Of a DNA stretch of 64,000 bases, positions 10,092-20,765 are shown piece by piece. Source of the stretch: Mariprofundus sp. (lineage in GTDB: Bacteria; Pseudomonadota; Zetaproteobacteria; Mariprofundales; Mariprofundaceae). Under the pieces are notes generated by a model. The model was not told the DNA's origin, ran no database searches, and worked only from the letters and a program-made list of their open reading frames with translations. Every line of letters begins with the position of its first letter. Position 1 is the stretch's first letter. The DNA lies in NCBI GenBank assembly GCA_021772835.1, contig JAJFLE010000079.1, positions 1 through 64,000 on the forward strand, in the 5' to 3' direction. A program made the position numbers and the translations under genes.

Positions 10092-12026
10092 TTATCGGAT
10101 TGGCTGAGGCTCTGCAAAATAATAACCCTGCATGGCATTGATGCCCAGCGCCTGCAACGCCAGATAATCCTGCTCACACTCGACATGTTCAGCAATGACC
10201 TGGATGTCCAGGCCGTGGGCAATATCGGTGACCGTCTGCAGGAAAAATCGGTTATCACTGTTGTCGGCGATATGACGAATATAGCTGCCATCAAGCTTGA
10301 TATAATCGAGTTTGAGCTCCCGAAGCGTTTGAAATGAGCTCAAGCGCGTACCGAAATGCTCCAGCACAACTCTGGCACCATGTGCGTGTGCGATCGCAAC
10401 AAAACGATGGGCCTCAGCATGGCTTTGCAGAATACCGTGTTCGGTGATTTCAAACAGCAGTTGGCCAGCGATTTTTTCATGCGCCTGCAGGTGCTTCTCC
10501 AGCCAGCTGGAGAAAGCGAAAGACTTGATGGAGCCGGTCGAGATGTTAATGCCCAGAGCCATGCTGCGATCGCATGCTGTTTCGAGCATGTCGGTAGCCT
10601 GTTCAATGGCAAAATGATCCAGCTGTTCATGCAGCTCCAGCCGTTCGGCCATGGCGGTAAAGGAGCCGGGCGAAATATCCTTGCCGGCTGCATCGTGCAC
10701 GCGCATGAGCAGTTCGCTGTAGAGCAGATGTGACTTTTTACCCATGACCGGCTGGGTGATAAAATGTATGCTGTTGTGTGCAAGCGCATGCTCGATGAGC
10801 TCTCGCCAGGCTTGATTACCCATCGCATCGCTGCGCTTGTTGAGCAGGTTATACTCATTGTCTCCCTGACGCTGGGCTGTGGCCAGCGCAGTATCCGCAT
10901 CGGCCAGTATATCCCCGAAACGGCTCTCCTGATCAAATGAAGCCAGTCCGATATGCGCGATACCGGACACACCAAGGTTTGAGCTCAGTCCGTCCAGCGA
11001 GTGGGAGAGTTCGCGGGCAAAAGCATGGGCCGTATCGCTTTCAGCCAGCGGTAGAATTACGGCGAAATCGACACCACCGATACGTGCGGCTATTGAGTCA
11101 TGGTAGTTCTCGCACAGCTTGTCTAGCTGTTTCGACAGCACCCTGAGCACGTCATCACCGGCCTGATGTCCGTGTATTTTGTTATAATCGGCGAAACCGG
11201 CGAGCCGGATCACGGCCACAAAACCTGTACCACCATGCTCGTGGTCTTTGATGGTGTTTTCCGCGATAGCCTTGAAACCGGTGCGGTTCATCAGATGTGT
11301 CATCTCATCGTAATGGGCCTGCTTGCGATATTTCTCTGCGCGCTCTGTCAATATGGAGACAAAGCGTTGTAATTTGATGGCCATTTTGTTCATGGCCTCA
11401 ACCACCTGTCGTAACTCACGGGTTTTGGGGATGTCAGTGAGCACGGGGAAATCACGATCGCAGATGGCAAGGGCTTGCGCCTCAACCGCATGCAGCGGCT
11501 TGAGGATGGTTTTGAGAATGAACAGGGCGGCAATGAATGAGATGAAAAATGCCAGTATTGACCACCACAAAATTTCAATGCTGGTCTGCCACAACTTTTT
11601 ATAGGCGAAGCCCGGGTGGGCAGTGAGTCTCAGGGTGCCCGACTGTGTCCAACCCGTGGTGATGACAGAATCCGCATGGGCTGTCTGCAGTGACAGTGCC
11701 TGGATGAACCACTGCGGAACGCCTTCAATACTGGTGGTATTTTCACGCTCTATGATTGACTCGCCGCTCATGCTCTTCAGCGACAGCGATTTGTAATAAC
11801 CACTGTCGAATACGGCATTGACCATGGTGTCCATGATAACGACATCATGGTTTTTGATGTGTGGAACCAGTGACAGGCCAAGCGAATCAACAGCGTTCTG
11901 AGTCTGGCTGGCCAATTGCAGCACCAGATAGGAGCGCGTGTTGTCTATACTGATGAGCAGGGAGCCTGTACCCATCGCTGCCGAGATGAAAAATATGAGT
12001 GCGTAAAGTTGCCTGGATAGTGTCAT
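10092..12026 (-). CDS. lapD: LapD-like inner-membrane c-di-GMP receptor
   Basis: LapD binds c-di-GMP inside the cell and sequesters the protease LapG outside, which protects a surface adhesin from cleavage. The 644 aa have one membrane segment at 8-27, a periplasmic LapD/MoxY-type domain (about 30-145), a second segment (about 150-172), HAMP, GGDEF (about 245-385) and EAL (about 400-640). Both catalytic motifs are degenerate: IGGVDF replaces GGDEF and YSELLMR replaces EALxR. This fits a receptor rather than an enzyme. Trp126 in TGWTQSG corresponds to the Trp that contacts LapG in Pseudomonas LapD. The gene starts 11 bases after lapG. Confidence 0.93.
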   Translation of the reverse strand: MTLSRQLYALIFFISAAMGTGSLLISIDNTRSYLVLQLASQTQNAVDSLGLSLVPHIKNHDVVIMDTMVNAVFDSGYYKSLSLKSMSGESIIERENTTSIEGVPQWFIQALSLQTAHADSVITTGWTQSGTLRLTAHPGFAYKKLWQTSIEILWWSILAFFISFIAALFILKTILKPLHAVEAQALAICDRDFPVLTDIPKTRELRQVVEAMNKMAIKLQRFVSILTERAEKYRKQAHYDEMTHLMNRTGFKAIAENTIKDHEHGGTGFVAVIRLAGFADYNKIHGHQAGDDVLRVLSKQLDKLCENYHDSIAARIGGVDFAVILPLAESDTAHAFARELSHSLDGLSSNLGVSGIAHIGLASFDQESRFGDILADADTALATAQRQGDNEYNLLNKRSDAMGNQAWRELIEHALAHNSIHFITQPVMGKKSHLLYSELLMRVHDAAGKDISPGSFTAMAERLELHEQLDHFAIEQATDMLETACDRSMALGINISTGSIKSFAFSSWLEKHLQAHEKIAGQLLFEITEHGILQSHAEAHRFVAIAHAHGARVVLEHFGTRLSSFQTLRELKLDYIKLDGSYIRHIADNSDNRFFLQTVTDIAHGLDIQVIAEHVECEQDYLALQALGINAMQGYYFAEPQPIR

Positions 12027-12037
12027 AAGCCTTTCCT

Positions 12038-12733
12038 CTACCTTGCCATGTCTTTTGCAGTATAGCTATGTCCGAGCTCTCTTTCCTGTTTCAAACGAAT
12101 ATTCAGATCGCGCCATAGATTGATGCGCTGGGAACCGCCGGCAATTTTACGCCCCTGGCCGCGTTCTTTGGACATCCACAAATTATTACCATTAAAGCTG
12201 TACACCGGCAGCAGGTCGGTGCGCCGTGAGGCCGGTTTAATTCTGTTGATCAGGTTATCGAGAATCAGTGGTTCGCTATCGGGAGTTTCATAATAGGCCA
12301 GCACCATATGGGCCTGATTTAATCTCAGTGCTTTTACATAGGTGATACGTAATCGTGCATCGGGAACACCGAGCTCCATCAGGGTGAAATATTTGGCGAT
12401 GGCAAAGTCTTCGCAATCGCCACCATTGGTGGAAAGCAGTTCAGTGGGTGTGGCCCAGTAGTCGGCCCGGCCCCAGTGGCTGTCATCGGAAATAAAGTCT
12501 ACCCGGTTAAAAAAATCATTTACTGCATGAATGCTTTGCCATTCACTGCCACCTTTGCTGTCTTCAATAAGCTCCTGCCAATCGACAATACGTTGTTTGG
12601 CCTTGTAACCAAACTCTTTGGCGATGTTGTCGAGGAATTCGGGAGAAAAACCACCATTACCTGCTGTTGTGATCGACACAGCAAGGATCAGCCAGACAAA
12701 AAATAACTGCTTGATAATTTTGCTGCTCAGCAT
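12038..12733 (-). CDS. lapG: LapG-like periplasmic cysteine protease (BTLCP family)
   Basis: LapG cleaves the N-terminus of a large adhesin to release cells from surfaces, and is held inactive by c-di-GMP-bound LapD. The 231-aa protein has a signal peptide (residues 1-24) and a transglutaminase-like fold. The triad Cys107 (GGDCEDF), His142 (AHMVLAY) and Asp159 (LILDN) is intact. The acidic residues flanking the Cys are the calcium ligands in this family. AGGAG precedes the ATG at 12733. The adhesin and its type I secretion system are not in this window. Confidence 0.93.
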   Translation of the reverse strand: MLSSKIIKQLFFVWLILAVSITTAGNGGFSPEFLDNIAKEFGYKAKQRIVDWQELIEDSKGGSEWQSIHAVNDFFNRVDFISDDSHWGRADYWATPTELLSTNGGDCEDFAIAKYFTLMELGVPDARLRITYVKALRLNQAHMVLAYYETPDSEPLILDNLINRIKPASRRTDLLPVYSFNGNNLWMSKERGQGRKIAGGSQRINLWRDLNIRLKQERELGHSYTAKDMAR

Positions 12734-16939: not shown

Positions 16940-17094
16940 TCTGTAAAGTACTTTAAAAACAGATAGTTACGACACTTACCCCTGGATTGAACAGGAAATG
17001 TTTTCCGGTTGTGTGGAAAATATTTCCCCGGACAAACGGGTAATATTTTCCATCATGCCTGAATGCTTGTGACAGGGCTGCTTAGAGAGTGCCC

Positions 17095-17129
17095 AAAACA
17101 GAGAAGCAGGCCATAAGGCCTGCTTCTCT
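17095..17129 (-). terminator. Terminator downstream of the ion channel gene
   Basis: A perfect 13-base stem (AGAGAAGCAGGCC/GGCCTGCTTCTCT, 17100-17112 with 17117-17129) has an ATAA loop and is followed on the minus strand by TGTTTTGGG. The stem is very strong and the T-run short. It ends the transcript that finishes with the channel gene. Confidence 0.65.
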
Positions 17130-17151: not shown

Positions 17152-20013
17152 TCAGTCGCTTTCGCCGATCAGAATTAATTCGGCAATATTTTCCCGGAAG
17201 TTGGTCCATGAATAACGGGAGACCGGATTTCCGAACGGGTTAAGGATGATCTGGTGCTGGCGCATGCATGAATAATCTTCCTCTCTCGGGAAGAGTGTGC
17301 GGATGGCGTTTTGCAGAGGGTCACTCCAGACAAAACTCTCTTTCAGGCGATAGCCAATCCAGATATAACCATGAGCCAACAGATCCGCAAATAGTGCTTC
17401 TGCATCTTCGGGAAGAGAGCCAGTCACAGCAAGCGTTTGAATATCCATTTCATCGGCATCACCGACATCACCCATCAAATCATCAATGGCATGGCGCAGC
17501 GTGCGTTGAAGTTCGTAGGCTCCCTCGTTTTCTGAGCTGTACATATGATAACTCGTGTGCGCCACATAGGTACCATAAAATGCATCCGGTACAGTAATGT
17601 GAATCTCATGTGGCAGATTAAAACGGTACAGCTCTTCTTGCAAAAGCAGTGCCTGTTCGCGGTTATCAAGCACAGGGAAGATTTCCGGTGTGCCGCCCTG
17701 TTCATTAACGATGGTGACCAGGTGTGACAGCACTGTTGCAATGCTGGCATAGGCATGTGCTTTTAAATGCGGGGCACGCGAAAGGAGAATTTTATCGGCA
17801 TCTTTCACATAGGGACGAAGGAAATTCATGTCGGCAAAATCCCAGCGAACCATATCCACCTGAATGCGTGCAGTGGCACCGGGGGAGCTATCAAGGCGAT
17901 TGCGCAGGTAGTCCATCTGCTCAGTGCATTGCTCTTCAGTGAGGTCATCAATTAACGTGACGTGGATGCTTTCAAAATCATCCAGCAAACGCTTGAGCAA
18001 CAGTGGCAGACTTCCGACCCAGCCGGTGACAAGCAGCCGGAGTTGCTTTTTATTTTTAACGCTTGTTAGTCCTGTCGGTAGCGTCGTGGTTTGCTTATGT
18101 GGTATATCATGCAGACGTTTGATGACGAAGAGTGCTTCTGACTGCATTGCATTTGCGCCTATGGCAACACCCAGGAGAGAGGGGATCTTCATGGGTAGTT
18201 TGAAATTGCCCACTTTATACAATGGGTGGGCGCGACCATGCTCATCGGCCAGTGCGACCAAAGTGACACCACGAACCATCAAGCGTGCGGCCAGCGTGTT
18301 CAACGGCATGGAACGGCTGCCATCCGGCAGACTCAGGGTGATTTGATCACCTTCACGTTGCAACAGACCACCCCACTCAGAGACTTGCAAAGAAGAGTCT
18401 TCGGTGCGGTCGGGGATCATCAAACGTTCCATGACCTGATCGAAATCCTTGTAGATAAGAATATTGCGAAACAGGTTGGCGCGCACATCAGCCTGCGACA
18501 GTACAACCGTAGGTTTGTTATAAAAATCGGTTGTATCCCAGCCTACCTGTAGCATATGATGATGAGAATCCAGATGTGGCGTGGCCATGCCCGGTGTTGC
18601 AACATTCACATAGATCTCAGGGTTTACCCTGCGTACAGCAATCAGTGCAAAGGTTGCATGAGCCAGATCATCTGCACCGGAGTGTCCATCCGGAATATTG
18701 ATAATTGCCTGTCTGGCATGATTAAGATTGACGCGCTGCAGTGATTTGGTTTCTTCCACCTGGCCCCAGCGGTAAGAGACCCAGCTGTGCTCAATCAATG
18801 TTTCAGGCATTTTCTCGCAGTTGTTCAAAACAACCAGTTTCAGCTTGGAAAAGCTGCGTTCAGAAATGGTTTTCAGCTGTGTGACAATAAATGGTGCGAC
18901 CGTTGACCATCCCAGTATGACCATGTGATTGGTGATATTCAGACGTTCATTGCGCAGCTTGGCCATCAGGCCGGAGACAATATGGGCACCGATACCGATG
19001 AAGAAGGCGAAGATGAATACGCCGATAATAACGGCGATAACAGAAAATACGGCAATGGGTGTCGAATCCGGGAATGCAACGGTATTACCCGGATCAGTGA
19101 ACATGCGAAAAGCAAACCAGATAGGGGCAAACATACCCTGATCCTGCTGATTGATCTGACCATCCTGCGTATAATCGAATGCAGACATGGTGTAATGACC
19201 GATAACACCGCCACCAATGGAGAGTACGGCCAGAAGCAATACAATCAGGTTGATTTCCTGCATGAACTGGCCTTCACGCATCACCTCTTTGAGGTTGCGG
19301 ATAATGACCATCCATGGACGCAGCAGGCGAACCAGGCGCAACATGCGCAGTGCGGCACCATATGGGATAAAGGCAAAAGCAGGAATCATGACGAGGGTGC
19401 CGATGGTATCCACCCACCAGTAGCCCCATTCAGCAATTTTATCCTTTCGTGATTCATAGTTCATGTTGCGCATGATCAGCAATCTAATAGCCAGCTCGAC
19501 AGCGAAGAAAATAATAATGATCCACATCAATGTGTCTTCGGCAAAGAACGAGAGCATAATGATTAATGAAATCAGCATGCCGTAGGTGGGTGAATACATC
19601 GCGCTCTGAAGGTCCAGGTAACGGAACATGCGCAGCGTACGCAGCAGATAGAAGGCTCGAATCAGACGGGCGGCAGCGGCATTTTCGGCATCAATAGGAA
19701 TATCTAATACGGTGATCAGCAGAGAGATAATGCCGATAACGTCCAGCACCAGAAAGAGCACATCAATCTTTTGATTCAGCGAAGAGCGATAGGGGTTGGT
19801 GCGACGTTTGTTCACCATGATGGTCACACGCATGGCGAGTTCGGCAGCAAAGAAGATGAACAGGACTGCGGCCAGTATCTGATTGTGAGTGAACGAGAGC
19901 GCAATCAGCCCCATCATCAGGAAGCCGAAGCGTGGATGCATCAGAATCCACTCCATATGATGATAGAAAAGCGGTCTGTCACTTAACACAGAAATGATGT
20001 CACTCTTTTTCAT
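17152..20013 (-). CDS. CASTOR/POLLUX-like ion channel with two tandem voltage-sensor-like modules
   Basis: A 953-aa membrane channel. Two successive S1-S4-like units are visible. Unit 1 has FFAAELAMR at 54-62 and an arginine helix with R116, R119, R125, R128 and R131. Unit 2 has FFAVELAIR at 169-177 and R223, R226, R229 and R232. Then come S5 (about 253-272), a calcium-loop-like motif at 280-291 (DYTQDGQINQQD), a pore helix with TDPGN at 306-310 in place of TVGYG, and S6 (about 318-345). Two cytoplasmic RCK/TrkA-like Rossmann domains follow (HMVILGWS near 363, LRLLVTGWVGS near 660). The filter resembles CASTOR/POLLUX channels, some of which conduct calcium; the ion here is unknown. It lies 74 bases after motE with no terminator between. 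Confidence 0.82.
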   Translation of the reverse strand: MKKSDIISVLSDRPLFYHHMEWILMHPRFGFLMMGLIALSFTHNQILAAVLFIFFAAELAMRVTIMVNKRRTNPYRSSLNQKIDVLFLVLDVIGIISLLITVLDIPIDAENAAAARLIRAFYLLRTLRMFRYLDLQSAMYSPTYGMLISLIIMLSFFAEDTLMWIIIIFFAVELAIRLLIMRNMNYESRKDKIAEWGYWWVDTIGTLVMIPAFAFIPYGAALRMLRLVRLLRPWMVIIRNLKEVMREGQFMQEINLIVLLLAVLSIGGGVIGHYTMSAFDYTQDGQINQQDQGMFAPIWFAFRMFTDPGNTVAFPDSTPIAVFSVIAVIIGVFIFAFFIGIGAHIVSGLMAKLRNERLNITNHMVILGWSTVAPFIVTQLKTISERSFSKLKLVVLNNCEKMPETLIEHSWVSYRWGQVEETKSLQRVNLNHARQAIINIPDGHSGADDLAHATFALIAVRRVNPEIYVNVATPGMATPHLDSHHHMLQVGWDTTDFYNKPTVVLSQADVRANLFRNILIYKDFDQVMERLMIPDRTEDSSLQVSEWGGLLQREGDQITLSLPDGSRSMPLNTLAARLMVRGVTLVALADEHGRAHPLYKVGNFKLPMKIPSLLGVAIGANAMQSEALFVIKRLHDIPHKQTTTLPTGLTSVKNKKQLRLLVTGWVGSLPLLLKRLLDDFESIHVTLIDDLTEEQCTEQMDYLRNRLDSSPGATARIQVDMVRWDFADMNFLRPYVKDADKILLSRAPHLKAHAYASIATVLSHLVTIVNEQGGTPEIFPVLDNREQALLLQEELYRFNLPHEIHITVPDAFYGTYVAHTSYHMYSSENEGAYELQRTLRHAIDDLMGDVGDADEMDIQTLAVTGSLPEDAEALFADLLAHGYIWIGYRLKESFVWSDPLQNAIRTLFPREEDYSCMRQHQIILNPFGNPVSRYSWTNFRENIAELILIGESD

Positions 20014-20087: not shown

Positions 20088-20765
20088 TCATTTGACGGAA
20101 CTGATCTGGCGGGTAAGTGCCTGACTGATGGCAACGGCTTTTTCAGGTGGCAGGAATGAGAGGATCTTACCCACCTTTTTTTCATCCATAATCAGAAATA
20201 TTTTCACCACAGTGACAAGTTCCATCTTTGCGATCACCGGCGCTGCCCGTTCGGGTTTCATGCCTTCGTAAACAGCGGTTAAACGTTTGATCTTTTTACT
20301 TTTAACTTTGGATTCATCCGATAGTCGTTGCTGAATGCTGGCCTCAAGTTGTTCGAGTTCAGTAATACGTTGTTTGAGCAGATCTTCAGCTTGCTGAATC
20401 TCTTCCTCACGTTGATCGAGCAAGCTCTTGCGTGAATCAAGCTCACCTTTGTACTGCCTTAATTTGGTCAACGTTTCATCTTCGTAATCGAGTGAGCTCG
20501 ATGCAGCTTCACTGCCTGCAGCCACGGCTTCGGGGAAGATATAATTTTCAAGCAAAGACAGGGATTGATCCACTGACAGCTCTGCGGGTTGCAAAAGCTC
20601 AGCTTTAGCCTGTATGGCTGCGGCATCAATGGTTGAGGGCATTGGCCCCATGACGATGGCCTGGCCATGATCAGTATGGGGAATCAAAAAGTGCATGCCA
20701 ACTTTGCCGCCCAGCAACAGGCCGATCATGGCGAAAAGCAGAATGGAGATCTTACGGTATGACAT
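20088..20765 (-). CDS. motE: MotE-like flagellar protein (coiled coil plus MgtE-N-like domain)
   Basis: MotE is a periplasmic or membrane-anchored chaperone that supports stator function in several bacteria. The 225-aa protein has an N-terminal membrane segment (residues 7-24). A long coiled coil (about 95-165, rich in Leu, Glu and Gln) follows, then a C-terminal MgtE-intracellular-like domain (AAPVIAKMELVTVVKIFLIM, then ILSFLPPEKAVAI). It begins two bases after fliJ, within the flagellar operon, which supports the assignment. The name rests on architecture and context. Confidence 0.8.
   Translation of the reverse strand: MSYRKISILLFAMIGLLLGGKVGMHFLIPHTDHGQAIVMGPMPSTIDAAAIQAKAELLQPAELSVDQSLSLLENYIFPEAVAAGSEAASSSLDYEDETLTKLRQYKGELDSRKSLLDQREEEIQQAEDLLKQRITELEQLEASIQQRLSDESKVKSKKIKRLTAVYEGMKPERAAPVIAKMELVTVVKIFLIMDEKKVGKILSFLPPEKAVAISQALTRQISSVK

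Follow-up and report, generated by a model that had tools for sequence, protein, structure and literature searches.

Known voltage-gated channels carry one sensor per pore unit, the two- and four-domain types included. Two-pore channels (TPC) and four-domain Nav/Cav channels hold more than one sensor per polypeptide, as does the channel described here; in them the whole six-helix unit is repeated and sensors and pores remain at 1:1, whereas the ratio here is 2:1. Slo/BK channels resemble our channel in S1-S4, pore and, as far as a low-confidence model shows, a tandem RCK gating ring, but a single sensor (plus S0) and a K+ filter set BK apart from the two sensors and the filter TDPGN found here. 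Bacterial Kv channels with RCK domains (L059-L061, L069) follow the same S1-S4-S5-P-S6-RCK order and show weak profile similarity, but are 510-590 residues long, with one sensor and a TVGYGD filter. NaVBP of alkaliphilic Bacillus is voltage-gated and has been linked to both motility and chemotaxis, roles of the kind we propose below. In contrast to our channel, it is a standard 6-TM protein with one sensor, no RCK domain and an unrelated filter.

Through its pore, the channel connects bacterial channels with CASTOR, POLLUX and DMI1, the symbiosis channels of plants. CASTOR is reported to be a Ca2+-selective, Ca2+-regulated RCK channel (PMC6697748). Shared features are a [TMA]D[PAS]G-type filter and an NHxxxLGWS-type RCK1 start after S6; a tandem RCK gating ring is suggested by a fold match from a low-confidence model. 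Our channel differs from CASTOR/POLLUX-like proteins in lacking the domain PF06241 and in having two S1-S4 modules, which are absent from the bacterial proteins L063, L064 and L091.

The gene lies in a 64,000-nucleotide stretch of a Mariprofundus sp. genome (hereafter the window) and has an ATG start and a ribosome-binding site of GAGG type (Table 1). At the level of sequence, its product very likely consists of two S1-S4 modules, then one S5-pore-S6 unit, then a tandem-RCK-like region. This reading is supported because internal homology, charge-transfer residues, helix order, topology, fixation among homologues and the absence of a literature description all point to it. The single S5-P-S6 does not meet the defining criterion of two-pore channels, two complete six-helix units, and two sensor-like modules per pore unit do not meet the one-sensor-per-pore criterion of the Ion_trans superfamily. 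An earlier sequence-only reading had suggested that such a layout is not a described class, and this is supported: in the open-access literature searched (subscription papers and preprints were outside the scope) we found no description of a tandem-, dual- or duplicated-sensor channel with a single pore, and the main text of the Zetaproteobacteria genome papers examined does not discuss the channel. A channel with a natural 2:1 ratio, fixed across a bacterial class, would offer a new system in which to study sensor-pore coupling and the contribution of a peripheral second sensor.

Table 1. Features of the channel locus, in window positions.
Feature	Position	Strand	Basis
VSD-VSD-pore-RCK-RCK channel gene (953 aa)	17152..20013	-	ORF list, translation
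Sensor-like module 1, S1-S4, residues 14-139	19597..19974	-	homology to module 2, helix prediction, conservation
Sensor-like module 2, S1'-S4', residues 137-250	19264..19605	-	Ion_trans score in L041, conservation
Module 1 S4, residues 109-136, Arg invariant at five positions	19606..19689	-	conservation, helix prediction
Module 2 S4', residues 220-247, Arg invariant at three positions, plus R232	19273..19356	-	conservation, helix prediction
S5, residues 250-275	19189..19266	-	helix prediction
EF-hand/dockerin-like loop DYTQDGQINQQD, outer S5-pore turret, residues 280-291	19141..19176	-	pattern match
Pore helix and filter TDPGN, residues 296-310	19084..19128	-	conservation, CASTOR/POLLUX-like comparison
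S6, residues 319-360, invariant G331, G340, G342	18934..19059	-	conservation, helix prediction
First RCK-like domain, about residues 361-610	18184..18933	-	profile matches (DMI1, BK, CASTOR, MthK)
Second RCK-like domain, about residues 655-953	17155..18051	-	Foldseek of full model (low-confidence model)
MotE-like gene, directly upstream of channel gene	20088..20765	-	MgtE_N-type C-terminus with coiled coil; neighbour order conserved
Strong terminator-like hairpin, 13-bp stem, 3' of channel gene	17100..17129	-	folding energy

Homology of the two sensor-like modules

The two modules are homologous, and their similarity is not due to chance. Their profiles align with P values of 3.7e-10 and 2.8e-10 (hhalign), at a score of 59.9 versus a maximum of 31.0 across 200 block shuffles; reversing the profile gave a score of 19.2, and the S5-S6 pore region, used as a control, one of 13.1. 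The two module pieces of the window protein alone align by BLASTP with E = 5e-10.

The residues that define the modules are conserved. R116, R119, R125, R128, R131, R223, R226 and R229 are present in 37/37 homologues, and position 232 is arginine in 35 and lysine in 2. Across the same homologues, E58 and R62 of module 1 are near-invariant and D91 is invariant, as are E173, R177 and D202 of module 2. Equivalent positions carry matching residues in at least 33 of the 37 homologues at P27/P142, S40/S155, F41/F156, F55/F170, E58/E173, R62/R177, D91/D202, R116/R223, R119/R226, L123/L230 and R125/R232. R128 and R131 are additional in module 1, where Tyr122 stands at an arginine step. In Kv channels, the charge-transfer layout comprises F-x2-E-x3-R in S2, an S3 aspartate and S4 arginines at every third residue. 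Both modules contain this set, with an S2 aromatic residue and glutamate, an S3 aspartate and spaced S4 arginines. The S1-S4 domains of many other channels are not voltage sensors.

Similarity to known sensors is weaker. Modules 1 and 2 each match bacterial Kv sensors (P ~1e-4). Among PDB profiles, module 2 matches the voltage sensor of KvAP best, at a weak E of 0.2, and the module 1 profile returned only chance matches to GPCRs in the PDB, none of them convincing. Single-sequence searches of the window protein in Pfam, NCBIfam and the PDB yielded nothing useful. For Pfam PF00520 (Ion_trans), the window protein falls below the cut-off, and the homologue L041 scores 1.1e-9 from module 2 to S6 (38.4 bits; curated cut-off 25).

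Most of what the sequence-only reading claimed for the protein held. The open reading frame is exact, with the minus strand now added; the S2 motifs FFAAELAMR (54-62) and FFAVELAIR (169-177) and all nine listed arginines (R116, R119, R125, R128, R131; R223, R226, R229, R232) are where it placed them. Its claim that one module occurs twice is borne out by the module-module comparison it had proposed (P ~3e-10; BLASTP 5e-10), and that of one S5-pore-S6 followed by RCK-like domains is supported by helix order, profiles and Foldseek. The description of an arginine at every third residue holds only in part, since module 1 skips one step at Y122. In the predicted structures, residues 14-139 contain four helices at low confidence; a four-helix bundle, a tetramer and voltage sensing remain inferences. 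The flagellar and chemotaxis context, the CASTOR/POLLUX-like pore and the EF-hand-like turret loop lay outside that reading.

The AlphaFold models were of low confidence: mean pLDDT was 50.2 in the run on the whole protein (9 sequences) and 55.7 in that on the TM part, residues 1-372 (10 sequences), where S2-S3 of module 1 reached about 56-83; we used only the helix order. Both runs gave essentially the same one, S1-S4-S1'-S4'-S5-P-S6. The predicted helices span 27-42, 45-72, 78-102 and 109-131/136 in module 1, and 142-157, 160-183, 189-215 and 220-247 in module 2, followed by S5 (250-275), the pore helix (296-306) and S6 (from 319). Outside the helices, 20 lysines and arginines fall on the predicted cytoplasmic side and 0 in any outer loop, consistent with the predicted topology of ten transmembrane helices with both termini inside. 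Foldseek with the TM model found nothing below E 0.2, its matches being voltage-gated and related channels. With the full model, the CASTOR gating ring (6o7c) ranked first at 1.3e-10, followed by Slo1, DMI1 and GsuK, an order that supports tandem RCK domains, albeit from a poor underlying model.

A CASTOR/POLLUX-like pore

The filter TDPGN is near-invariant among homologues, and the TVGYG of K+ channels is absent. The best PDB matches of the family profile are DMI1 (E 0.0026), BK, CASTOR and MthK. For comparison, we used bacterial CASTOR/POLLUX-like proteins found via the CASTOR/POLLUX Pfam domain (L062-L064, L091); pore and RCK1 align with them at a profile P of 3.5e-13, and L091 (RAMDPG) as well as L063 and L064 (LTDPG) also carry a DPG filter. 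The channel has the CASTOR/POLLUX/DMI1 features of an xDxG filter and an RCK1 start after S6. Castor_Poll_mid (PF06241) has no match in the window protein or its genome, and because of this absence we do not file the channel as a CASTOR/POLLUX member. The strict EF-hand loop pattern occurs in 21/36 family-A and 5/9 family-B members (families defined below), and its sequence pattern predicts a possible periplasmic Ca2+ site at turret loop 280-291.

Two channel families and their co-occurrence with flagella

The homologues fall into two families, in both of which the sensor-sensor-pore-RCK order is shown, at sequence level, to be fixed. Family A, to which the window protein belongs, has members of about 950 residues, with paralogues 42-50% identical. 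Family B (L049-L058, L085-L090) comprises ORFs of about 1,000-1,700 residues with 22-28% identity to A that keep the order VSD-VSD-pore-RCK; the two families align across 634 columns after S5 (P 2.4e-29). Most family-B members have a six-arginine S4 in module 1, and S4' of module 2 is reduced to two arginines. In the module tree, module 1 of family A groups with module 1 of family B, and the tandem arrangement is therefore older than the A/B split. It likely arose by duplication, although long branches leave the tree without a safe root and the duplication cannot be dated from it. The C-terminal region of family B (e.g. L050:3894-4523; about 200 residues) also occurs as stand-alone ORFs and, in G112, in tandem; it has no Pfam match over a cut-off.

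Both families were seen only in Zetaproteobacteria, in profile searches confined to Pseudomonadota genomes. The family-A profile scores in 56/78 Zetaproteobacteria genomes, a count that takes in family B and fragments, and in 1/321 of the other Pseudomonadota sampled, there through a CASTOR-like pore/RCK1 only. The range looked no different in a second draw of genomes around G378. Among 84,980 species genomes, a scan that detects close relatives only returned nine relatives, all from Mariprofundus or unclassified Zetaproteobacteria. No relative was found encoded on viral contigs, and plasmids gave no match. Weak relatives in G001, G049 and G169 are ordinary Kv/RCK channels with TVGYGD, so the tandem-sensor architecture does not reach as far as these.

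The carriers are iron-oxidising Zetaproteobacteria, with the gene inside flagellum clusters. In the window, the order fliF-G-H-I-J-motE is followed, after a 74 bp gap, by the channel gene. The channel follows motE in most family-A orthologue loci (the window, L004-L006, L008-L011, L074 and L076), with the fliF-G-H-I-J-motE order upstream wherever the contig reaches that far; this includes L005, L006 and L008, where fliK-flgD-flgE are not adjacent. Copies in L072 and L084 precede fliK, and several family-A orthologues or paralogues sit elsewhere. Family B occupies a chemotaxis position, MCP-[channel]-cheY-cheA-cheW-cheB-cheR. This gene context is shown; that the 13-bp hairpin (-31.6 kcal/mol over a 61-nt stretch, z -4.3, with a short U-tract) closes a single fliF...motE-channel transcription unit is inferred.

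Channel and flagellum also co-occur across genomes. With FliG_C as the flagellum marker, sought in the same 78 genomes, presence of channel and FliG agrees in 69 (50 with both, 19 with neither, 3 with FliG only, 6 with the channel only; Fisher 3e-10). Restricting the count to genomes at least 90% complete leaves 29 with both, 3 with FliG only, 0 with the channel only and 10 with neither (Fisher 2e-7). These p-values are optimistic, as kinship among genomes is ignored. Six genera contain flagellated, channel-bearing members alongside members without both, so that, beyond the co-loss shown by these counts, repeated joint loss is probable. The flagellated genomes G009, G044 and G100 have no channel of this kind, and the channel is therefore not required for a flagellum. 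A functional tie to flagellar motility is likely, in the absence of functional data.

Proposed function and competing explanations

We propose that the gene product assembles as a tetramer into a cation channel. Each subunit would cross the membrane with ten helices and combine two S1-S4 modules in series, one CASTOR/POLLUX-type S5-P-S6 and a tandem-RCK gating ring. In the full tetramer, itself inferred, a single pore would be surrounded by eight sensors. Module 2 would act as the conventional sensor, coupled to S5 via the S4'-S5 linker, and module 1 as an added peripheral sensor derived from the same ancestral module. The TDPGN pore would make this a non-K+ cation channel, its ion selectivity being likewise an inference. 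Expressed as part of the flagellar fliF...motE transcription unit, the channel would serve motility: changes in membrane potential and a cytoplasmic RCK ligand, perhaps with periplasmic Ca2+ at the turret loop, would gate the flow of cations through it, and this flux would inform the motor of the flagellum or adjust it. Family B would play an equivalent role from the chemotaxis operon. Voltage gating and the motor or taxis role are inferred. Without functional data, we favour the joint statement of a tetrameric, voltage- and ligand-gated cation channel serving motility by a modest margin, a strength we give it because its core is the architecture and the motility link. That both modules actively sense voltage in one cation channel is a narrower claim, for which there is no electrophysiology and which we hold to be less likely than not.

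The strongest rival holds that one module alone senses voltage and the other is a structural or docking S1-S4, for instance for a flagellar or chemotaxis partner. In its favour, the modules can diverge in role, as the six-arginine S4 of module 1 and two-arginine S4' of module 2 in family B suggest, and the S1-S4 domains of CNG- and TRP-type channels are not strong voltage sensors. Against it, family A keeps the arginines, the S2 glutamate and the S3 aspartate in both modules, which is hard to square with a purely structural module. We regard this rival as plausible, though less likely than not.

A second rival is a CASTOR/POLLUX-like Ca2+ channel that is ligand- or redox-gated, under the control of an RCK ligand and periplasmic Ca2+ and without voltage gating. 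The DPG filter and RCK1 common to CASTOR/POLLUX-like proteins, the CASTOR gating ring as top fold match and the EF-hand-like turret loop speak for it. However, in the compared bacterial proteins (L062-L064, L091) the pore is not preceded by an S1-S4 that carries S4 arginines, whereas these channels have kept two, and we consider this rival unlikely.

Very unlikely is chance hitch-hiking, in which the channel would serve general ion or pH homeostasis. Several genomes do have further family-A paralogues at a distance from the flagellar genes (L077, L078, L079, L080, L082), but among near-complete genomes the channel occurs in 0/10 non-flagellated and 29/32 flagellated ones, and a second channel family is located in chemotaxis operons. 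An artefact, by chimeric assembly or a gene-model error fusing two channel genes, has no supporting evidence and is all but excluded, since many independent assemblies, contributing 37 distinct homologues, show the fused frame, as does the diverged family B.

Returning to the tetrameric, motility-serving channel that we favour, a bolder version, a new class of channel, is possible, though less likely than not. Two independent, active sensors per subunit, eight per tetramer, would act in series on a Ca2+-selective or non-selective cation pore, and the channel would provide flagellated iron oxidisers with a direct electrical read-out of the proton-motive force to control motor or taxis, in flagellar and chemotaxis versions. 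The flagellar co-occurrence and the chemotaxis-operon family raise a testable question: does a voltage-gated channel couple membrane potential to swimming?

Two further features of the window deserve mention. Between the channel terminator and fliK (about 17014-17050, minus strand) is an inverted repeat, ggaaaatattacccg-tttgt-ccggggaaatattttcc, a possible regulator site. Beside flgE, a LapD-like GGDEF/EAL protein (10095-12733, minus strand) adjoins a BTLCP (LapG-like) protease, and these neighbours are likely a c-di-GMP adhesin-release pair.
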